From contig NZ_LVWJ02000011.1 in the NCBI RefSeq assembly GCF_001625015.1, positions 312,501 through 376,500 of the forward strand: 64,000 nucleotides of DNA, in the 5' to 3' direction. Positions 112 through 58,500 of this stretch are shown here, one piece after another (the first letter of the stretch is position 1; each line of letters begins with the position of its first letter). A program made the position numbers and the translations under genes. This DNA comes from Lewinella sp. 4G2. GTDB lineage: Bacteria; Bacteroidota; Bacteroidia; Chitinophagales; Saprospiraceae. The notes beneath the pieces are model-generated. The model did no database searches. It was not told the DNA's origin and saw only the letters and a list, made by a program, of their open reading frames with translations.

Positions 112-3100
112 ATGCTACTATCCCTGCACGACCGCCTGAAAAAGGACATTTTATCGCTGGATTACGACGATTTCGTCCACCTCGTCGCCATCATGCTGCA
201 GGGTTACGAAGTGAGTATTTACGATCTATTTCAGACAGCTTTTGTCGTCACTGGCCAGCGTAGTTCGAGCTATACGGAACGGTCGGTGGAGAAGCTATTA
301 AAGCGAGAATTGGTCTACACGACTTGGCGCACCGTGGCCATTTCGGCGCAGTACCGCGTGCCTACCGTATTCGCCGCTCAGCAGTTGCGGCCGGGGCATT
401 TGAAGGCTTTGATTGCGCAAGTGAACCAGCAACGCTCCTTCCCTTCGGGCGATTCACCGCACAGCCGGATGGGCCGCCGGTATGCGGATATCGGTCTGCG
501 GGCCATCCATAAAATTCTGTTGGATAAGTCGCGTGAATTCCGCTCGCTCTACCGCGAGCTCGAGCAACAGACGCCGTACCTGATGTACGAGCGCACGGGC
601 GCGCTCTCCCGCGTAGATGCCGTGCTGGGCACCATCGACTGGCCATTTTGGGACGAGCGGGACGCGGTCTTCCAGGAATTAACCTGGATATCCATTCAAA
701 AAAATTACCGCAACTGGGATGAAGCCACGGCGCAGCGCATGGAGGTTGGGTTTCAGCGCCTTTTCGTCGGGAACCAGCGGCTGCCGGAAATTGCCAGGGC
801 TGGCTTGGTCCTGGCCTGGGGACACTTCCGTGAGCGTACTGATTTATTTAGTGGCGACGACGGTCTGCAATTTTTAGCCGCCATCACCTCGGGCCGCCAA
901 CCCGACGCCTTTTCGGTAGAAAGTATTAATCCTACCGGCACCCAATCCGTAGGTTTCGTGGCCGCAGCGCAGCTACTTTATCTATATGGTAAAAAATTAA
1001 TTGATGCAACTACGCTTTCCACTACGGCGAATACTTTTAAATACAGCAACTACCCTATTTTAGTTAATTGCATCATTGCGCTATCACTCGTTGAAAACGA
1101 GCGCCCGGTAGAAGGCGAAAATTTATACGAAGCCCAATTAAAAAGTGATATCCGCCACCCGCTCGATTGGCTCATTGCGCTGCTCTGCGCCGGGTGGATG
1201 GGGTACAAACTGCGTACTTCCCAACTCAGCCCCCTCCTTACCATCCTGGAAGCGGGTGAATTTGATAACGTCCCCTGGCTACACGGCGAGATCCTCTTTG
1301 CCCTGCGCGCTGTTTCTCCGGCGACCTTCACGGCTCACCAAACTAAGATCGGGGCGCTGACGCAGGTGCCAGCTGAGTCGGGACTTTACGGACTCCTCCC
1401 CCAAAAACCAACCTGGGCCTATACCTTAAGACAGCTCCAAAAAGCAACCGCCGCCAGCGCCACCGAAGCGACGGACCCCGAGTTCCGGACCATCTGGATC
1501 GTCGATTTCGACAACCAGGAAGTGATGTGCAAGGAACAAAAAATGGGCAAGAAAGGCTGGAGCAAGGGCCGCCGCGTAAAGTGGATGGAACTCATCAACC
1601 CCAAAGCCAGCGCCAACCTGGAAGAAGCCGACCAACGCGCCGTGCAGGGCATCTCCATGACGGACGGCCGCATCGTGAGAGCCGGAGGCTACTATTCCGA
1701 GGATATGCTCCACGCCAGCTTCGGCCGCATCCTCTACGAAATTGCGGACCACCCCCGCATCTACCTAGGCGACAAACAACGAATCCCCCTCGAACTGAAA
1801 CGGGCTGAAGCGGAACTGCAAGTCTCCGAAACCGCCGCCGGCCTCAAACTGAGTTTTGACCCACCCGTAGAGCGCGCCGGCTACGTCTGGCGGAAGGATA
1901 CCCCTACCCGCTACAAAGTGTACCACCTGACGGAAGAACAAGCCCAGATCGCTTTCTCAGTCGGCGAAGGCGTGGAGATCCCCAATACGGAGCGGGATAA
2001 AGTGGAGACCGTCGTCGAACAAATCCGCCCCCGCATTCACGTGCAGTCAACGCTGGACCTCATCGACGAAGATCTGGAATCCATCAGCGGTAGTACTAAG
2101 CCCTGCTTTCACCTGCTGCCCTTCGGGGAAGGGTACAAAGTGGAACTTTACGTAAAGCCCGTCCCGGAACATTCCATCTACTTTAAACCGGGTGATGGTT
2201 TGCCGCGGTCCATCGTCGTCCTGGAAGAAGGCCGTCGCTTGCTGGAACGCAACCTCGAAGAAGAGCGCAACGAAGCCGCAGAGGCCATCCTTAGTTGCCC
2301 CACCCTGGCGCGGACGCCGCAGGACAATTACGAATGGGCGATCGGTGAAACCCAAACCGCCCTCCGCATCCTCCTCGAACTGCGCAAACTCGTGCAGGAC
2401 GATCTCATTTACATCGAACACCCGAAGGGCGAAAAACTGAAGATCGTGGCTCAGGCCGGACAGGACACCCTTGCCCTCAAAGTCGGCAAGAGCCGCGATT
2501 GGTTTGAGGTGGATGGGCAACTGACCGTCAACGAAGAACGGGTGGCGAGCCTCCAATCTTTGCTTGAGCACCTTAAAGAACAGCGGGAAAACCCCTTCAT
2601 CGAATTGGGCGAAGGCGAATTCCTCGCCATCACGGATGAGCTGCGCGATAAAGTCCTAGAAATGGAAGGCCTCCTCCACCAACGGGGCAAAGGACTACAA
2701 CTTCCCACCCTCGCGGCGGGTGCCTTCGACGCTATCGCCGAGGACCTCGAGGACGTAGAGTTCGACGACAACTGGCGGGGTGCCCTCGACCGGATTAAAC
2801 TGGCCGAAAGCATCCGCCCCCGCGTGCCCCGCAACTTCAATGCGGAACTGCGCGACTACCAGGTAGAAGGCTACAAGTGGATGATGCGCCTCGCCGAATG
2901 GGGCGTCGGTGGCTGCCTGGCTGATGACATGGGCCTGGGTAAAACCGTCCAGTCACTCGCCATGCTGACTGCCAGGGCGGATAAGGGGCCGGCACTCGTC
3001 ATTGCCCCGGCCTCCGTTACCCGTAACTGGGCCAGGGAAACGGAAAAGTTTGCCCCGGCGCTGCTGCCCGTTCTCATCGCCTCCCGCACCGACGCCCAGC

Positions 3101-4212
3101 ACCTGTCGGACCTTGGGAATGGCGACCTGGCGCTGGTCAGCTACGGGCTACTCCCATTCATCGGGGAAGAATTGGAAGCCAAGGAGTGGGCCACGATCGT
3201 CATCGACGAAGCCCAGGCCATCAAAAATGCAGTGACCAAACGCGCTAAAATTGTGCAAAACCTGAGTGCCGACTTCAAACTGGCCACCACCGGTACGCCG
3301 ATTGAGAATCATTTAGGTGAATTGTGGAGCCTCTTCCGTTTCCTCAACCCCGGCCTACTCGGAGGGAAGAAAGCGTTTAACGAAAAGTACAACCGCCCCA
3401 TCGCGGTACACGGCGACGAACAGATGCGGGAGGCGCTGAAACGCCTGGTGCAACCCTTTATTCTGCGCCGTCGTAAGGATGAAGTCCTTACTGAACTGCC
3501 GCCCAAAACGGAGATCATTCTCGAGGTAGCCCTCAGCGAGGAAGAGACGGCACTCTACGAAGCCATGCGCCGCCAGGCCCTCAAAGAAATTGCGGAAGCC
3601 GGCGAGCAGGAACGGCGGTTCAAGGTCCTCGCTCAACTCACCAAACTGCGGCAGGCGGCGTGCCACCCCCGGCTCGTCCGCCCAACTTCCAAGATCGGTT
3701 CCGCCAAGCTGGAGCTGGTCGGAGAAACCATCCTGGAGATCCTAGATAATGGCCACAAGGCTCTCATTTTTTCTCAGTTCGTCAAGCACCTGAAAATTGT
3801 CGAAAATTGGGTCAAAGGCCAGGGCATCGCCTACCAATACCTCGACGGATCGACGCCGGGCAAGCAGCGGGAGACCGCCGTCAATAAATTCCAGGCCGGC
3901 GAGGGCGATGTATTTCTCATCAGCCTTAAGGCGGGCGGCACGGGCCTCAACCTCACTGAAGCCGACTACGTCCTCCATCTCGACCCCTGGTGGAACCCGG
4001 CCGCCGAAGACCAGGCCAGCGACCGCGCCCATCGCATCGGCCAGCAACGCCCGGTGACGGTTTACCGCTTCGTCAGCCAGGGCACGATCGAGGAGCAGAT
4101 CATTGCTCTCCACTCAGAAAAAAGGGACCTTGCGGACCAAATTTTGTCCGGCACCGGGAACGCGGGTAAACTTGGGGTGGATGAGATTTTGACCTTGATT
4201 GCGGAGGGGTAA
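112..4212 (+). CDS. SNF2-family DNA-dependent ATPase / DEAD-box-like helicase, very long
   Basis: A Swi2/Snf2-type ATP-driven DNA translocase that probably remodels protein-DNA or RNA polymerase complexes. The helicase core is complete and C-terminal: Walker A DDMGLGKT near residue 938, Walker B DEAQ near 1032, a TGTPIEN motif III region, and the helicase C lobe ending in DRAHRIGQ near 1305. About 900 residues precede the core with no motif I can name; a charged segment around 900 leads into RDYQVEGYKWM, the Q-like motif of SNF2 enzymes. No SWIM-type CxC zinc motif is visible. At 1366 residues it is longer than RapA-like enzymes (about 970). The last codons (ILTLIAEG) lie inside the tandem duplication that follows. 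It carries one copy of the dispersed 17-mer at 1353, read as ALTQVP. The core assignment is secure; the substrate is unknown. Confidence 0.93.
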   Translation: MLLSLHDRLKKDILSLDYDDFVHLVAIMLQGYEVSIYDLFQTAFVVTGQRSSSYTERSVEKLLKRELVYTTWRTVAISAQYRVPTVFAAQQLRPGHLKALIAQVNQQRSFPSGDSPHSRMGRRYADIGLRAIHKILLDKSREFRSLYRELEQQTPYLMYERTGALSRVDAVLGTIDWPFWDERDAVFQELTWISIQKNYRNWDEATAQRMEVGFQRLFVGNQRLPEIARAGLVLAWGHFRERTDLFSGDDGLQFLAAITSGRQPDAFSVESINPTGTQSVGFVAAAQLLYLYGKKLIDATTLSTTANTFKYSNYPILVNCIIALSLVENERPVEGENLYEAQLKSDIRHPLDWLIALLCAGWMGYKLRTSQLSPLLTILEAGEFDNVPWLHGEILFALRAVSPATFTAHQTKIGALTQVPAESGLYGLLPQKPTWAYTLRQLQKATAASATEATDPEFRTIWIVDFDNQEVMCKEQKMGKKGWSKGRRVKWMELINPKASANLEEADQRAVQGISMTDGRIVRAGGYYSEDMLHASFGRILYEIADHPRIYLGDKQRIPLELKRAEAELQVSETAAGLKLSFDPPVERAGYVWRKDTPTRYKVYHLTEEQAQIAFSVGEGVEIPNTERDKVETVVEQIRPRIHVQSTLDLIDEDLESISGSTKPCFHLLPFGEGYKVELYVKPVPEHSIYFKPGDGLPRSIVVLEEGRRLLERNLEEERNEAAEAILSCPTLARTPQDNYEWAIGETQTALRILLELRKLVQDDLIYIEHPKGEKLKIVAQAGQDTLALKVGKSRDWFEVDGQLTVNEERVASLQSLLEHLKEQRENPFIELGEGEFLAITDELRDKVLEMEGLLHQRGKGLQLPTLAAGAFDAIAEDLEDVEFDDNWRGALDRIKLAESIRPRVPRNFNAELRDYQVEGYKWMMRLAEWGVGGCLADDMGLGKTVQSLAMLTARADKGPALVIAPASVTRNWARETEKFAPALLPVLIASRTDAQHLSDLGNGDLALVSYGLLPFIGEELEAKEWATIVIDEAQAIKNAVTKRAKIVQNLSADFKLATTGTPIENHLGELWSLFRFLNPGLLGGKKAFNEKYNRPIAVHGDEQMREALKRLVQPFILRRRKDEVLTELPPKTEIILEVALSEEETALYEAMRRQALKEIAEAGEQERRFKVLAQLTKLRQAACHPRLVRPTSKIGSAKLELVGETILEILDNGHKALIFSQFVKHLKIVENWVKGQGIAYQYLDGSTPGKQRETAVNKFQAGEGDVFLISLKAGGTGLNLTEADYVLHLDPWWNPAAEDQASDRAHRIGQQRPVTVYRFVSQGTIEEQIIALHSEKRDLADQILSGTGNAGKLGVDEILTLIAEG

Positions 4213-4214
4213 AG

Positions 4215-4315
4215 GTTTTCGACAAGAAGCCAAAGAGGGGAAAGAGGAATAAGAAGTTTGCTTCCGGGCCATGCCCCTTATCCTTCTTTTCCTCCTTATT
4301 CCCCTTGTCGAAAAC
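4215..4315. terminator. long inverted repeat after SNF2 gene (copy 1)
   Basis: GTTTTCGACAAG (4215-4226) is perfectly complementary to CTTGTCGAAAAC (4304-4315). The loop is purine-rich on its left half and pyrimidine-rich on its right half, so the stem extends imperfectly. The whole structure is repeated 237 bases downstream (4452-4552). It may end SNF2 transcription, but there is no clear run of T. Confidence 0.45.
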
Positions 4316-4359
4316 TATCACGTGCAGCGTCTACTTACCTTTCCAACGAAAATCAGCCC

Positions 4360-4449
4360 ATGACCATCAACGCCACCACCGCCACCGCCAAAGAACTCTA
4401 CCGCATCATGTCCACCGCCGTTATTTTGACCTTGATTGCGGAGGGGTAA
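4360..4449 (+). pseudogene. chimeric 29-codon remnant: flavin reductase start fused to SNF2 end
   Basis: Starting at the ATG that corresponds to the true flavin reductase start in the other repeat unit, 21 codons (MTINATTATAKEL...) run directly into the duplicated SNF2 tail ILTLIAEG and stop. It is the junction product of the tandem duplication. It keeps the native upstream region of the flavin reductase gene, so it could be translated, but it has no domain. Confidence 0.75.
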
Positions 4450-4596
4450 AGGTTTTCGACAAGAAGCTAAAGAGGGAAAAGAGGAATAAGAAGTTTGCTT
4501 CCGGGCCATGCCCCTTATCCTTCTTTTCCTCCTTATTCCCCTTGTCGAAAACTATCACGGGCAGCGTCTACTTACCTTTCCAACGAAAATCAGCCC

Positions 4597-5463
4597 ATGA
4601 CCATCAACGCCACCACCGCTACCGCCAAAGAACTCTACCGCATCATGTCCACCGCCGTCGCGCCGCGGCCCATTTGCTTTGCGAGCACGGTCAGTGCGGC
4701 GGGTGCGGTCAACCTCAGCCCCTACAGTTTTTTCAACGTCATGAGCGTCAATCCCCCCATCCTCGGCTTTGCCGTTACGCGGCGGGGGGCGGATAATTCT
4801 ACCAAGGATACGCTCAATAATGTCCTGGAAGTCCCGGAGGTCTGCATCAACATCGTCGAGCACCGTTACGTCGAGCAGATGTCGCTAGCCAGCACTCAGT
4901 ATCCACCCGGCGTCAACGAGTTTGAGAAGGCGGCGCTGTCGCAGGTGCCAAGTGAAGGGATCAGGCCGCCCCGGCTGGGGGAAGCCTCCATCAGCTTTGA
5001 ATGTACCGTAGACCAAGTAATCGCCCTCGGTGACGGACCGATCGCCGGCAACCTGGTACTAGCCAGAATAAAGACCATCCACCTGGCCGATGACATCCTC
5101 GGTAATGACGGCAAAGTGGACAGCGAAAAGCTGGACCTGGTCGGCAGGATGGGCGGCAACCATTACGTCCGCGCGACGGAGGCGGCGAAGTTCCTCGTCG
5201 CTAAACCCACCGGCCAGCCCGGCCTGGGCATCGACGGATTACCGGAACGCGTCCGCTTCAGTGAAGAACTATCTGGGAATGAGCTCGGCAGACTGGGTAA
5301 CCTCACCACCCTTCCAACGCCGGAGGAGCTGGCTGCCACCCGTGAAGAAGCCCGCGTGCAGTACGCTTTACTTGATGGGGAGGAGGCATTGGTTACTTTA
5401 GCGAAGGAGAGCTTGGCGGTGGGGGATACGGAATTTGCTTTGCGGGTTTTGTTGGTGGAGTGA
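4597..5463 (+). CDS. flavin reductase-like, FMN-binding split-barrel protein
   Basis: A 288-residue protein of the flavin reductase-like (DIM6/NTAB) family, which bind FMN or FAD in a split beta-barrel and often act as NAD(P)H:flavin oxidoreductases. The family signature is near the N-terminus: the start MTINATTATAKEL leads into RPICFASTVSAAGAVNLSPY and SFFNVMSVNPPILGF. The frame is open upstream to 4495, but that stretch is the duplicated spacer, so the ATG at 4597 is preferred. A TACCTTTC box at 4573-4580 may be part of its promoter. The gene also contains a dispersed 17-mer copy at 4932 (ALSQVP). The substrate cannot be told from sequence. Confidence 0.88.
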   Translation: MTINATTATAKELYRIMSTAVAPRPICFASTVSAAGAVNLSPYSFFNVMSVNPPILGFAVTRRGADNSTKDTLNNVLEVPEVCINIVEHRYVEQMSLASTQYPPGVNEFEKAALSQVPSEGIRPPRLGEASISFECTVDQVIALGDGPIAGNLVLARIKTIHLADDILGNDGKVDSEKLDLVGRMGGNHYVRATEAAKFLVAKPTGQPGLGIDGLPERVRFSEELSGNELGRLGNLTTLPTPEELAATREEARVQYALLDGEEALVTLAKESLAVGDTEFALRVLLVE

Positions 5464-14503: not shown

Positions 14504-14803
14504 ATGACCTTCGAAGAATTCAAAGCCGGCGTAGAAAAAGCGGGCGCCAAAGCACCTAACCTCGGCAAATCCCTCAAACTCAACCTCGACGAAGGGACCA
14601 TCCACATCGACATGACGGGCGACAATGGTGCCGTCGTAACCGAGGAGGATAAGGAAGCCGATACCGTTGTTACCACCAACGTCGACACCCTCGACCAACT
14701 CCGCACTGGACAGCTTAACCCCATGATGGCGATGATGGGAGGTAAGGTGAAGATCAAGGGCGATATGGGCTTGGCGATGAAATTGCAGGGGTTGCTTAGT
14801 TAG
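14504..14803 (+). CDS. SCP2 sterol-transfer-like domain protein
   Basis: A 99-residue stand-alone SCP2-like domain, a small alpha/beta fold with a hydrophobic tunnel for acyl chains or other lipids. Recognisable features are KLNLDEGTIHIDMTG in the beta-sheet and the C-terminal GQLNPMMAMMGGKVKIKGDM, whose KIKGD turn is the family signature. It is likely a cytoplasmic lipid carrier, with no obvious partner gene. A TACCTTGC box at 14472-14479 may be its -7 element. Confidence 0.85.
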   Translation: MTFEEFKAGVEKAGAKAPNLGKSLKLNLDEGTIHIDMTGDNGAVVTEEDKEADTVVTTNVDTLDQLRTGQLNPMMAMMGGKVKIKGDMGLAMKLQGLLS

Positions 14804-14911
14804 TATCGAGTTGCGAGAGACAAGTATCGAGTTACGAGTGGCAAGTATCGAGTTACGAGTGTCGCAACTTGCAACTCGCTACTTGATACTCGCAACTCGT
14901 TACTCGCAACT
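14804..14911. repeat. convergent tandem repeats forming a large hairpin
   Basis: Three direct copies of a 21-bp unit TATCGAGTTRCGAGWGRCAAG are followed by inverted versions of the same words (CTTGCAACTCGCTACTTGATACTCGCAACTC and so on). The tract fills the entire gap between two convergent stop codons and can fold from either strand, so it may serve as a bidirectional terminator. Confidence 0.7.
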
Positions 14912-15694
14912 CTACACCCGTTCATATTTCGCCCGCACGAACATAAAAATCCCGTAGGCGAGCAGCCCCGTCCCTACAACCGCGAGGACGGCGTTGCCCC
15001 ATCCGTCGCCCAGGTATTCGAGGGCGCCCTGGATGCCACGGAACTCTCCGGCGTCATTCTGCATGGCGGCCTGGTAGAGGAAATAGGCGATGATTCCGTA
15101 AACGATGGATCGGGCCACGAGACCGATGCGGCCCGTGGTGCGGAAAGCCTCTTCCGTTTCGTCGGAGAGTTGTTGGTCTTTTACGCCTTCCATGTGCTTA
15201 TCCGCGACGCCGCGGTACACCTGGTAGATGGCTACGCCCACCATGATGGCGGCGATGGCGTAGACGGCGAATTGCCCCCAGCTGTATTCGAGAATTTTGG
15301 CGATCATGGTTTCCTTCCCCCCGGTGCTACCGCCGCCGGCGAAAGCCTCCTTGAAGGCAAAGACGGCCAGCACGCCGTAAGCCGTTCCGCTCACGGCCCA
15401 CCCCACTCGTTTTACGCTTCCCGAGGCATCGTGCCCTTCATTTTCCGTGTCCTTCACGGCGGTGTACCAGCGGTAGCTACAATAGCAAAGCAGCCCCAGC
15501 CCGATGGCCGTCAGCAGGATCTGCCCGGCCGGGTTATTTCCTAACCAGGCGATGACGTCCTTGGGGCCGGTGGCACCCCGCGAGATCCCGATCAGGGTAG
15601 CCACGGCGAAGAAGCCAATTAGTGAGTACACGACGCCCTTGGCCGTATAGCCCCATTCGAATAAGGTTTGTTGTTTACTTTTTGATAGTCCCAT
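14912..15694 (-). CDS. DUF1206 membrane protein
   Basis: 260 residues with about six membrane helices arranged as three similar pairs. Each pair contains a motif like RxGYxxKGVVY: WGYTAKGVVYSLIG, GWAVSGTAYGVLA and GLVARSIVYGIIAYF. This triplication is the hallmark of DUF1206. The family function is unknown. It is converging with the SCP2-like gene and monocistronic. Confidence 0.88.
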   Translation of the reverse strand: MGLSKSKQQTLFEWGYTAKGVVYSLIGFFAVATLIGISRGATGPKDVIAWLGNNPAGQILLTAIGLGLLCYCSYRWYTAVKDTENEGHDASGSVKRVGWAVSGTAYGVLAVFAFKEAFAGGGSTGGKETMIAKILEYSWGQFAVYAIAAIMVGVAIYQVYRGVADKHMEGVKDQQLSDETEEAFRTTGRIGLVARSIVYGIIAYFLYQAAMQNDAGEFRGIQGALEYLGDGWGNAVLAVVGTGLLAYGIFMFVRAKYERV

Positions 15695-26432: not shown

Positions 26433-26539
26433 GGTTTGCCCGAAGGCGAACTATCCCAGTAGGTTAACCCAAAGGCGAACTATTCCAGTAGTGTTGCCCG
26501 AAGGCGAACTAATCCGGTAGGTTTGCCTTCAGGCGAACC
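26433..26539. repeat. REP array, 4 units upstream of the RAYT gene
   Basis: Four units in a perfect 29-bp period (26433, 26462, 26491, 26520), each 20 bp of hairpin type GGTTTGCCCGAAGGCGAACT plus a 9-bp spacer like ATCCCAGTA. The arm GGCGAAC is invariant; the left arm and loop vary. It matches the hairpins downstream of the transposase gene. Confidence 0.85.
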
Positions 26540-26622: not shown

Positions 26623-27357
26623 ATGAACTCTTTAAAAAACACCTACCGCACCGGCCAACTCCCCCATCTCCAGCCCAAGCGGGCAACCTATTCAGTAATA
26701 ATCCTCGTCGACGATGCAGTGCCTAAACCTATTCTTTACAAATTAGCCAACGATCGAAACGAAAAACTTTCGGGTATACTTAGGTTCAAAAAGGCTGACT
26801 GGCGTAACGCGTACTTCAAAGCCCGATCCTCTTTCGATCGGCGCTTAGACATTTTACTACAACAGCACGCGAATCAGACACACCCGCTCGCAGATGCACG
26901 TGCAGCACAGGTTATCGTGGATACCCTAAAAAAGTATGACGGTGTATACTACGACCTGTACAGTTACTCCGTGATGTCTAATCACGTGCATATAGAAATA
27001 GACCTTAGCGTGCAGACCGACGACTTGAACTACGTCCCCCTTAGCAAAGTGATGAATTTGATTAAGGGTGGATCTTCTTTCCGGATCAACCGAATTTTAG
27101 GACGACGGGGCAAACCTCTTTGGGCTCGCCGCTACAGGGACCGCTTTATTCGAGGGGAAACGCATTTATACTCCGCCTACCGCTATACTTTAAATAATCC
27201 AGTTGCTGCAGGGATTACACAACAAATTGGGGACCATCCATTCACCGGTGGTAAAAGCTGGGAGGAGATTTCTGCGTTAGCGGAGCGGCGGGTTTATCCT
27301 TCACCTCAATATTGGTATGATCGGCTTATGGCTTACGACTTGGGGGAAGTTGGGTGA
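26623..27357 (+). CDS. REP-associated tyrosine transposase (RAYT, Y1 HUH)
   Basis: A 244-residue single-domain Y1 transposase of the IS200/IS605-related RAYT type. The HUH metal motif is H121-V-H123 (MSNHVHIEI) and the catalytic tyrosine lies in the helix SAYRYTLNNPVAAG (Y188 by position). RAYTs bind and cleave single-stranded REP hairpins and are linked to REP spread. Here the gene lies between four and three copies of the cognate-looking hairpin. Composition is more AT-rich than its neighbours. The ATG at 26623 is preferred over an in-frame TTG at 26602. Confidence 0.92.
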   Translation: MNSLKNTYRTGQLPHLQPKRATYSVIILVDDAVPKPILYKLANDRNEKLSGILRFKKADWRNAYFKARSSFDRRLDILLQQHANQTHPLADARAAQVIVDTLKKYDGVYYDLYSYSVMSNHVHIEIDLSVQTDDLNYVPLSKVMNLIKGGSSFRINRILGRRGKPLWARRYRDRFIRGETHLYSAYRYTLNNPVAAGITQQIGDHPFTGGKSWEEISALAERRVYPSPQYWYDRLMAYDLGEVG

Positions 27358-27381: not shown

Positions 27382-27504
27382 GGTTCGCCTGAAGGCGAAC
27401 CTACCGGTTGGGAGCAGGAGTGGCTAAAGCATGGGTTCGCCTGAAGGCAAACCTACCTGTTGGGGTTGGCGTGGCTTAAGCACGGGTTCGCCTGAAGGCG
27501 AACC
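27382..27504. repeat. REP array, 3 units downstream of the RAYT gene
   Basis: GGTTCGCC-TGAA-GGCGAACC, a perfect 8-bp hairpin, at 27382-27401, with copies at 27434-27453 (one substitution in the right arm) and 27485-27504. Spacing is 51-52 bases, with spacer words such as CTACCNGTTGGG and GTGGCTWAAGCA conserved too. The last copy ends 12 bases before the DUF1415 stop codon. Confidence 0.88.
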
Positions 27505-27515
27505 TACCAGTAGAG

Positions 27516-29114: not shown

Positions 29115-29300
29115 TATTTCGCAGGAGAGGTAGAGGAAAAGAGTAAAGGAGGTTGCACCACAACACTACCGAAAGAGTTCCTTAGCACTTGATTAGCTGG
29201 AGCATGGACGAGGAAATCAAGCCAATTGGTTTCCGAAAAAACTGAAAAACTAAGCAGGATAATCGCCTCTACTTCTCCTCATCTCTACCTCTCCTGCGAA
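29115..29300. repeat. MITE-like element with 18-bp inverted ends
   Basis: TTCGCAGGAGAGGTAGAG (29118-29135) recurs as its exact complement at 29283-29300. The roughly 150 bp between them have no ORF. A further copy of the arm is at 44107-44127. The element fills most of the 275-base gap between the two minus-strand operons. Confidence 0.65.
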
Positions 29301-42871: not shown

Positions 42872-42897
42872 ATTACGGAAATTCCTGATAGACTTTA

Positions 42898-42955
42898 GAC
42901 GTTAGATTTTAGACTTTGGACGGACTTTAGAAGTTAGATTTTAGACTTTAGAGTG
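42898..42955. repeat. degenerate AGACTTT repeats
   Basis: GTTAGATTTTAGACTTT occurs twice with a 32-base period (42901, 42933), within a run of related words TAGACTTTAGAC. It lies directly upstream of pepP and is similar in style to the tract at 6488. Confidence 0.6.
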
Positions 42956-55521: not shown

Positions 55522-58500
55522 CTACCGCAGCAAATTCACCACCCCACTCCCCAAGGTAACCTCCCCGTCCGACCAACGCACCCGGTACCGGACAATGTAA
55601 GTCCCCGTTGGCCGATCATCGCCGTCCCAGCCGGCGTTGAGGTCACCAGCCGGAAAGTCACCTGCGCGGAAGACTTCCCCGCCCCACCGGTCGTACACGG
55701 CCATTTCTTCCACCGTCGCCCTACCCGCGCGGGTGTAGACCATCAGACGGTCGTTGACGCCATCACCGTTGGGGCTGAAGGCCGTGGGCAGGTAGGCATC
55801 CCGGCGGCGGGCGATTTGTACTAACGTGGAGTCGGTCGCCAGGCAGCCGGATTCATCCATTACCGTGGCAAATACCAATGTTGGATTCAGCGGCTCCATA
55901 TCTAGGGCCGGGCAGTTAAGGCAGGTGGCCTCCGCCAGGGTATCACTCACCAGGTAGCTGTATACGTAGCCACCGCGGCCCCCGTCGGCACTGGCGGGTA
56001 ATTGAATGCGGTCCCCTTCGAGAACGACTACGTTATCGGGCAGATCCACGGTGAGTGGAGCGGGGTCCGAAATGGTAAAGGTCTCCGTTACCTCACAGCC
56101 ATTTCCGTATTGTATCGCTACGGTGTAGCCACCCGTCGCCACGCTGTCCAGCACTGCTGGGCTGGTAAAGAGAGAGTCGTTAACCCGTAAGCTTGTGGCA
56201 CCAATCAAATCACCAATCAGGATACGCGCGTCGTCTGCGCCGGCGCAGGAGATGTCCAGCACCTCAACCAAGTCGTCGATCATGGGTGCGGTCGTCAGGC
56301 TGAACGTGTAATTCACCACGCTATCGCAAGTGCCGGGCCGGGTGAATCGCCGTTCCACCACCGTATCTCTGGCAACCGTGATTATCTCATCACCCACTGC
56401 TACTGGTCCCGCCTCGCACAGCGTTTCGGCCACGCTTACGGTAGTTTCCCGACCCACAAAAACCCGGTAGGTCTGGGCGCTGTCGCAGGTGCCAGGTTGG
56501 GGATATAATTCAGTAAAGACGGTATCCTGAGTAATAAAGTAGGTTCCTTGATCGGTTGTAAGCATCTCTGCATTACAGTAGTTCAGTACGGTCGTATTGG
56601 CTGCGCCTTCCTCCACGGAAATTTGATAGGTGACGGTACTGTCGCAAGCCCCCGCCGTAGGATATACCTCGGTGAAGGTGGTATCCTGGGTGACGAAGTA
56701 ATCGGACCGCTCAGTAACGAACAACGTCGGCTCACAGAAGCGATCGGTGACCAGCATACTTGGCGCCTCGTCAATAAAGATGCGGTAGGTCTGGATGCTG
56801 TCGCATTCCCCCGGCCGTAAGTACGTTTCCTCGATCACCGTATCGCGGGTCACGAAATAGGTATCCTGCCCGGTCGTTACGGTGGAGGGGCCACATCTCC
56901 GGTCCCTTACCTCGGCACCCGCGGCAGCGCCCAACTGGACGGTGGTTACGCGCGAACCCGTACATCCTTCTGCGGTGGTAAACGGCTCGTTGATCACCGT
57001 ATCCTGAGTGACGAAGTAAGTCCCACCAGCAGTAACCACCGGCCCGGGCTGGCAGATAAACTCGTTAAATTGTTCGTCCACGGCGGGTCGAATCGTGACC
57101 GTGTAGGTATGCACGGAATCGCAAGTGCCAGGACGGACAAAGGTCTCCTCAATCACCGTATCCCGGGTAACGAAGTAGGTACTGATGCCAGTCGCGAAAG
57201 TCTCCGGACCACAGAGTTGGTCACTACTCGCCCCCGTTACCCCACTACCAATCGTAACCGTGTAGGTATGCACGGAATCGCAGGTGCCAGGCCGGACAAA
57301 GGTTTCCTCAATAACCGTATCTCGTGTTATGAAATAGGTACCGAGGCCAGTCGTGTATAGTTCCGGACCACAAAGTTGGTCACTACTCGCCCCCGTCACC
57401 CCACTACCGATCGTGACCGTGTAGGTGTGCACGGAATCGCAAGTGCCGGGCCGGACAAAGGTTTCCTCAATCACCGTATCCCGCGTGACGAAGTAGGTGC
57501 TGAGACCAGTCGCGAAAGTCTCCGGACCACAAAGTTGGTCACTACTCGCCCCCATCACCCCACTACCGATGGTAACCGTGTAGGTATGCACGGAATCGCA
57601 AGTTCCGGGCCGAACAAAGGTTTCCTCAATCACCGTATCCTGCGTCACGAAGTAGGTATTGAGACCAGCCGCGTAGGTCTCCGGACCACAAAGTTGGTCA
57701 CTACTCGCCCCCGTCACCCCACTGCCGATCGTGACCGTGTAGGTATGCACGGAATCGCAAGTGCCAGCACGGACGAAGGTCTCCTCAATCACCGTATCCC
57801 GCGTAACGAAGTAGGTACTAAGGCCGGTCGCAAAAGTCTCCGGGCCACACAAACTGAAGTCACTACCAGCCTGCACCGCGGGCGTAATGGTAACGCGGAA
57901 AACCTCAGTACTATCGCACCCCGCTGCGGAGGTAAAGCGCTCCGTAATCACCGTATCCTGGGTAACGAAGTAGGACGCCGCACCCGTACTAACTAACTGC
58001 GGCCCACACTGGCTGACGGTAGTTTCATTCAAGAATAATTCGTTCACCGTAACCTCCGTGATGCGCAAACTGTCTCCTCCACTCTCGGCGACGTACCGCT
58101 CTCGGATCGTCGTATCCTGGGTAACGAAGTAATCCGCTTGCGGGGTGGTGAATAGCCCCGGCCCGCACTGGGTAGCGGTTCCCGTGGTGGTTACGGCAGA
58201 CGGGCGGACGAGTACGTATGTCTGCATCGAATCGCAGCCATTACTCCCTACGTAAGTCTCCGTAATAATAGTATCACCATTGATCGCGTAGGTGCCCTGA
58301 GCGGTGATGAGGTTATCCTGATTAAAGGGATCAAAAGTGAGCGTGTCCCGCGTAAGGTCATTGACAGTCACCGAATAGGTGATTGTGCTATCACACCCCG
58401 TCACGCTGCTGTACAATTCGTTGATCAGGGTATCTTGCGTGACGAAGTACACCGCCCGCTCGGTCACCACCTCCCCCGGGCCACACTGGTTGACCGGGAT

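Follow-up and report, generated by a model that had tools for sequence, protein, structure and literature searches.

Tandem duplication of a gene junction across a dispersed palindromic element in Lewinella sp. 4G2

Why would a bacterial genome carry the junction between two neighbouring genes twice? The question is raised by a 64,000-nucleotide stretch of Lewinella sp. 4G2 (contig NZ_LVWJ02000011.1, positions 312,501 to 376,500; hereafter the window), where the 3′ end of an SNF2-family helicase gene, the spacer behind it and the first codons of a flavin reductase-like gene stand in two head-to-tail copies. Our best reading, to which we assign a probability of roughly 0.8, is an ordinary, lineage-specific tandem duplication, formed without homology across a non-autonomous palindromic element, near neutral in effect and leaving a functionless chimeric open reading frame (ORF). 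The features concerned are as follows, in window coordinates.

112..4212, plus strand: SNF2-family helicase gene, 1366 aa, intact, whose last 8 codons and stop open the unit (ORF; Pfam SNF2-rel_dom 3.8e-64, Helicase_C 4e-25)
4186..4422, plus strand: copy 1 of the duplicated unit of 236/237 bp (end of SNF2, spacer, start of the reductase; repeat alignment, Tandem Repeats Finder)
4215..4315, no strand: phased palindrome, type A/A, copy 1, beginning 2 bp past the SNF2 stop (repeat and genome searches)
4360..4449, plus strand: chimeric 29-codon ORF, 21 reductase codons plus ILTLIAEG and a stop (ORF; without Pfam match)
4423..4659, plus strand: second copy of the unit, running on into the intact reductase (repeat alignment, Tandem Repeats Finder)
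4452..4552, no strand: phased palindrome, type A/A, copy 2 (repeat and genome searches)
4597..5463, plus strand: flavin reductase-like gene, 288 aa, intact (Pfam Flavin_Reduct 3.4e-16; start matches the N. antarctica orthologue)

Positions 4186-4421 recur at 4423-4658 in the same register, at a spacing of 237 and with 98% identity over the 236 positions compared (Tandem Repeats Finder score, 918), a similarity that is far beyond chance. Each unit holds the last eight SNF2 codons with their stop, the spacer and 21 flavin reductase codons. A first-pass annotation of the window had described a tandem duplication at this junction that was not brand new, and both statements are borne out, the copies differing at 4 of 236 positions (4231 C/4468 T, 4240 G/4477 A, 4323 T/4560 G and 4383 C/4620 T). 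In addition, an odd base between the copies, T4422, stands opposite C4659. The breakpoint flanks, GGTGGATGAG|ATTTTGACCT, CACCGCCGTT|ATTTTGACCT and CACCGCCGT|CGCGCCGCGG, share no matching bases and hence no microhomology, which makes homologous recombination or slippage between direct repeats an unlikely origin. More likely, the ends were joined bluntly, with a single base added or mutated; some 236 bp, spanning the SNF2 3′ end, the 101-bp palindromic element and 21 reductase codons, would have been joined without homology.

Whenever a tandem duplication begins in one gene and ends in a co-directional neighbour, both genes survive intact and a head-to-tail fusion appears between them. Here the fusion starts at ATG 4360, stops at TAA 4447-4449 and reads MTINATTATAKELYRIMSTAV followed by ILTLIAEG; because 237 is 3 × 79, it remains in frame with SNF2, which would be expected in one such event out of three. 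The sole difference within the shared coding part, at 4383, is synonymous. The chimera of 21 reductase codons and the SNF2 residues ILTLIAEG proposed in the annotation is therefore real as an ORF, but its rank as a mini-gene is not upheld, since the geometry of the duplication leads one to expect just such a by-product. It is most likely neutral, and probably without function.

The further suggestion that transcription of the reductase or the terminator of SNF2 may be altered finds no support, as copy 2 keeps the whole spacer and a consensus scan of the spacer (4213-4596) revealed no terminator-like site, with the proviso that the scan takes loops of 3-8 bases only and cannot score the palindrome itself. 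The palindrome ends in GAAAAC, and no T run typical of an intrinsic terminator is visible by eye behind it. Likewise, no sigma-70-type promoter-like site was found in the spacer by a consensus scan whose coverage does not extend to Bacteroidota promoters. A search of positions 4000-4800 against Rfam gave 15 matches up to E 1, all to microRNA or snoRNA models and far below the gathering cut-offs; we dismissed the microRNA matches as chance. Two plasmid records were retrieved in a separate search, both matching via the helicase.

The spacer contains an imperfect palindrome of 101 bp, missed in the annotation, which is dispersed over the genome. A genome search with the whole unit (40 of 60 candidates scored) returned both copies and many more matches; those with E <0.04 fall within unit positions 18-149, which take in the palindrome, and hits on the coding ends of the unit appear from E 0.05 onwards. 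The terminus of its arms, GTTTTCGACAAG (type A), has 32 exact sites in the genome as compared to 1 for the backward control, and 0-2 per genome in 20 congeners. A sister terminus, TTTCGCAAAGAAG (type B), has 38 sites (control 0) and 0-3 per genome in the other 20 genomes of the genus, where the sites in G001, G002 and G014 do not, by a weight-matrix scan, belong to the same element. Thus, among the 21 genus genomes searched, the palindrome is restricted to this one. The two arm types pair in all combinations (AA, AB, BA and BB), and the stretches examined hold 37 arm clusters, 15 of them convergent, 15 tandem, 6 divergent and 1 undetermined. None of the 37 lies inside an ORF as called with a simple script, and a few overlap an ORF end by at most 58 bp. 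We also note a second SNF2 gene (L039, G000:C14:514200-517301) directly 5′ of three such palindromes. Literature searches on Lewinella palindromes, intergenic motifs, phased or periodic intergenic palindromes, and duplication chimeras listed no paper judged relevant. A motif of such intergenic repeats, GCAAAGACGCAAAG, matched 10 of 61 family genomes (0 control matches) and was not used for any conclusion; among the 10 loci fetched it could be read in 7 (in 3 it lies on the unread strand), 5 of these resembling intergenic repeats by eye and 2 (L141, L145) resembling coding sequence.

The arms follow a nine-base register. With sites chosen by the exact terminus alone and the 30 following columns analyzed, so that the body was not selected for any pattern, the information autocorrelation at lag 9 reached 0.69 for A (32 sites) and 0.74 for B (38 sites), all other lags from 2 to 13 giving at most 0.16. 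Conservation ends at column 42 in A arms and column 40 in B arms. Columns 19, 24, 28 and 30 of the A arms carry the same base in 32/32 sites, and the commonest base accounts for 17/32 at column 16 and 14/32 at column 34. Since they share ancestry, and some are tandem copies, the arm sites are not independent of one another.

Several interpretations of the arms were tried and set aside. Coding sequence is one, since stops occur in frame and it is third codon positions (NNG) that are invariant. Mutation targeted to the variable columns is likewise disfavoured: among 49 neighbouring tandem pairs, 31 of 118 differences lie in conserved columns and 87 in variable ones, the latter share exceeding the expected 22/39 (binomial P 7e-5), bearing in mind that arms were located by a weight matrix built from earlier arms, from which badly decayed arms may escape, favouring variable columns. 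Such a spread agrees with selection rather than with a mutator that acts on variable columns only. Selected mismatching between arms (anti-pairing) was considered because arm-arm matches within an element number 151/408 as compared to 176.7 expected (standard deviation 7.4). The deficit is seen in AA and BB elements (96/272 vs. 128.5, standard deviation 7.4) but not in AB and BA elements (63/153 vs. 57.8), which would be explained by two distinct end types rather than by anti-pairing.

Is the duplication in the window a singular event? Near-identical tandem arms (same strand, at least 85% identity, within 400 bp) occur in 14 of the 37 clusters. Furthermore, we sampled 464 kb, namely the window and 20 stretches of 20 kb at even distances. 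The sample has 10 array rows that are mostly non-coding and whose units reach at least 100 bp, a pair in L088 overlapping each other; 5 of the 10, the window included, carry arms of type A, B or a third family, C (TTTCGCAGGAG...), whose arms build several arrays in this sample. One more row with C arms (L083 19203-19450, unit 104) was excluded, 71% of its length lying within a called ORF, and two rows in the window at 57092-57974 are wholly coding. Element loci duplicate in tandem often and repeatedly, and with tandem copies at other loci of the element, the event in the window becomes part of a recurrent local pattern. What seems to distinguish the window unit is its extension into both neighbouring genes. 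As to unit lengths, a type-B palindrome array at G000:C14:896115-897032 (in L124) has a period of 146 bp, and the arrays at C11:99901 and C14:538613 and the C-family array at L087:370 have periods of 144-147 bp. In the window itself, C termini lie at 29117, 43971 and 44109, the last two 138 bp apart and in tandem.

Comparison with relatives bears on the age of the event. The genome is that of a Neolewinella relative, the nearest named reductase being from N. antarctica (76% identical). Among 20 other genomes of the genus, this species alone has SNF2 next to the reductase (flanks of 1.5 kb examined; upstream flank shorter at two reductase loci, 819 bp in L003 and 540 bp in L005), and its junction is single, with an unrelated spacer of ∼320 bp. 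The comparison of close relatives recommended in the annotation thus yielded one copy and a different spacer, from which the duplication is probably lineage specific and younger than the split from N. antarctica. By eye only, the N. antarctica spacer (L002 1180-1330) shows a different inverted repeat of roughly nine-base phase (CACAGAAACACAAAAGCACACAAG).

A further lead came from a protein family. The genome has two matches to PF13366 (PDDEXK_3), at C14:1936683-1937033 and C19:222625-222975; both proteins are members of GxxExxY (TIGR04256; 99 and 103.5 bits, cut-off 35) and exceed the PF13366 cut-off. Inverted A arms enclose the former gene (G000:C14:1936683-1937033) and inverted C arms the latter. 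We therefore aligned the upstream flank of GxxExxY genes with the reverse complement of the downstream flank and compared the score with 200 dinucleotide shuffles. Loci were drawn by protein family alone, the best-scoring being fetched (2 own, 30 from the family and 30 from the phylum); 23 of 32 family loci (9 dropped for short flanks) and 29 of 30 phylum loci (1 dropped) were usable. Inverted flanks beat all 200 shuffles at 15/23 family and 12/29 phylum loci. Without the two own genes, which had prompted the test, the family count is 13/21, and repeating the test with tighter length filtering and fresh shuffles gave 14/22. At 7/23 family and 11/29 phylum loci, the score was equalled or exceeded by more than 2 of the 200 shuffles. 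As for controls, the median score was 11 both for 27 reductase loci, which peaked at 16, and for 600 random placements in the genome, whose 99th percentile was 19 and whose highest score was 42. By the harder yardstick of a score above 19, 14/23 family loci and only 7/29 phylum loci remain, making the phylum signal the weaker one.

Arm sequences vary from locus to locus, and the nine-base rhythm recurs. In the family set (28 arms), lag 9 gives a self-match of 0.377, the top of lags 3-19, as compared to a mean of 0.274 and a maximum of 0.305 among shuffles. The rhythm is less strict in the phylum set (20 arms), with 0.338 at lag 9 (shuffle maximum 0.295) and 0.341 at lag 10 (shuffle maximum 0.304). 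The association between arms and GxxExxY genes is statistically supported. On the protein side, the D and ExK columns are invariant in 58/58 collected proteins, where a K with E, D or Q two positions earlier was a condition of collection and the D was not; 4 of 62 loci yielded no collected protein. A sequence search for related solved structures found none, the best of 3 PDB matches having E 0.61. GxxExxY genes occur in 73 of the 148 Bacteroidota genomes searched. Tandem GxxExxY pairs were seen at G204:C4:68680-69767 (740 bp start to start) and G143:C1:1593378-1594187 (477 bp), looking as if whole elements had been duplicated there, too. The names GxxExxY, PDDEXK_3, PF13366 or TIGR04256 turn up in three papers of the open library searched, PMC8934634 (in a passage on reverse transcriptases), PMC12085832 and PMC9756366. 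A further paper, PMC11270868, deals with rRNA insertion sequences and carries no weight here. No description of flanking repeats, of such a link or of a role for GxxExxY was found among the papers listed from this library (20 of 24 in one search), subscription papers and preprints being outside the search.

With these data at hand, how else might the doubled junction be explained? Two variants of one junction could have been set in tandem by the assembler, and an assembly in 21 contigs lends this idea some credit. However, differences at four scattered positions plus the joint base are unlike a simple assembly duplication, the contig extends over 398,648 bp and contamination is listed at 0.06, all of which renders an artefact very improbable. 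Selection might instead have favoured the doubled spacer, its two hairpins and short upstream ORF tuning reductase expression. The start site of copy 1 and its context nearly equal those of the reductase, such that an upstream-ORF effect is conceivable, and the single change in the shared coding part (4383) is silent. Yet the reductase retains a full spacer, that spacer has no sigma-70-type site within the limits of the scan described above, and 13 further clusters, set among different neighbours, also contain tandem arms of this family; we consider a regulatory role unlikely.

Alternatively, the element itself might drive the process, a GxxExxY-type PDDEXK protein cutting or nicking the phased palindrome and repair giving tandem copies. 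The inverted A and C arms around this genome's only two PF13366 matches speak for this, as do the enrichment of inverted flanks across family and phylum and the D and ExK columns invariant in all 58 proteins (K and E/D/Q preselected). On the other hand, the breakpoints do not coincide with the ends of the original element but fall 29 bp beyond it on the left and 106 bp beyond it on the right, convincing arms are absent at 7/23 family and 11/29 phylum loci, and other palindrome families are tandemly duplicated as well, leaving this explanation doubtful. For the preferred reading, a neutral duplication over a non-autonomous element, the palindrome may provoke such duplications as a hairpin or by being cut, the event would be near neutral, and the element could be a non-autonomous relative of those bearing GxxExxY (PF13366) genes. 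Two observations weigh against parts of it: the flanks of several copies show no obvious target-site duplication by eye, and other tandem arrays carry unrelated palindromes (RAYT/REP type and others, see below), so that the tendency to duplicate is not special to the A/B element.

While the duplication as such is routine, it leads to something of wider interest, a set of palindromes in intergenic DNA whose nine-base register is unexplained and whose arms are associated with GxxExxY genes. Tentatively, GxxExxY proteins may be the enzymes of unrecognised, widespread small mobile elements of Bacteroidota, in which a PDDEXK-type gene of ∼130 codons would sit between inverted arms made up of nine-base repeats of degenerate sequence, and palindromic copies lacking the gene would be dispersed through the genomes; the window palindrome would be one such copy, and its cutting would yield tandem duplications. 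Mobilization or cutting of palindromes by GxxExxY proteins is a promising, unproven idea. If the link is causal, these putative nucleases would gain a testable function, and a class of bacterial intergenic repeats would be explained.

How does the element relate to known classes? As described in PMC3733652, repetitive extragenic palindromes (REPs) of the GTAG and CGTC super-families are 20-40 bp long, with a stem of 5-13 bp and a GTAG or CGTC tag at one end; REPs and bacterial interspersed mosaic elements (BIMEs) are dispersed palindromes, large clusters of which recur in tandem together with flanking DNA, some families being confined to one species and the GTAG type often lying near a REP-associated tyrosine transposase (RAYT) gene (PMC3733652). 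By this description, the window element is similar in being a dispersed palindrome, reiterated in tandem and confined to one genome. It differs in its arms of ∼42 nt, as compared to REP stems of 5-13 bp, in the nine-base rhythm, in showing no GTAG/CGTC tag, and in its link to GxxExxY (PDDEXK) rather than Y1_Tnp. Its size and ends are not those of a REP either, with 101 bp, arms of 42 columns and the ends GTTTTCGAC or TTTCGCA. A RAYT as mobilizer was rejected: by eye, no A or B arm lies within 450 bp on either side of 6 Y1_Tnp loci, several of which have palindromes of their own. One RAYT-type Y1_Tnp gene is in the window (26908-27138; 27.5 bits), between its own short palindromes of GGTTCGCCTGAAGGCGAACC type (26436-26538 and 27382-27508), a REPtron-like arrangement.

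Miniature inverted-repeat transposable elements (MITEs) are short, non-autonomous elements with inverted ends, dispersed in intergenic DNA. The palindrome resembles them in being short, dispersed, without an ORF of its own and bounded by inverted ends; unlike MITEs, it has a degenerate nine-base register in each arm and no linked classical transposase. A putative autonomous partner is the GxxExxY gene between inverted A arms (C14:1936683-1937033). Spontaneous small tandem duplications by illegitimate joining leave head-to-tail copies, intact flanking genes and a chimeric junction ORF. The window event shares all three, but its unit holds a dispersed palindrome and its joint is without microhomology.

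Elsewhere in the window, a 159-bp tandem repeat of 4.8 copies at 57092-57849 lies inside an ORF and probably reflects a repetitive protein, and short tandem repeats with units of 7-25 bp are found at 14802-14912 and 42889-42952.

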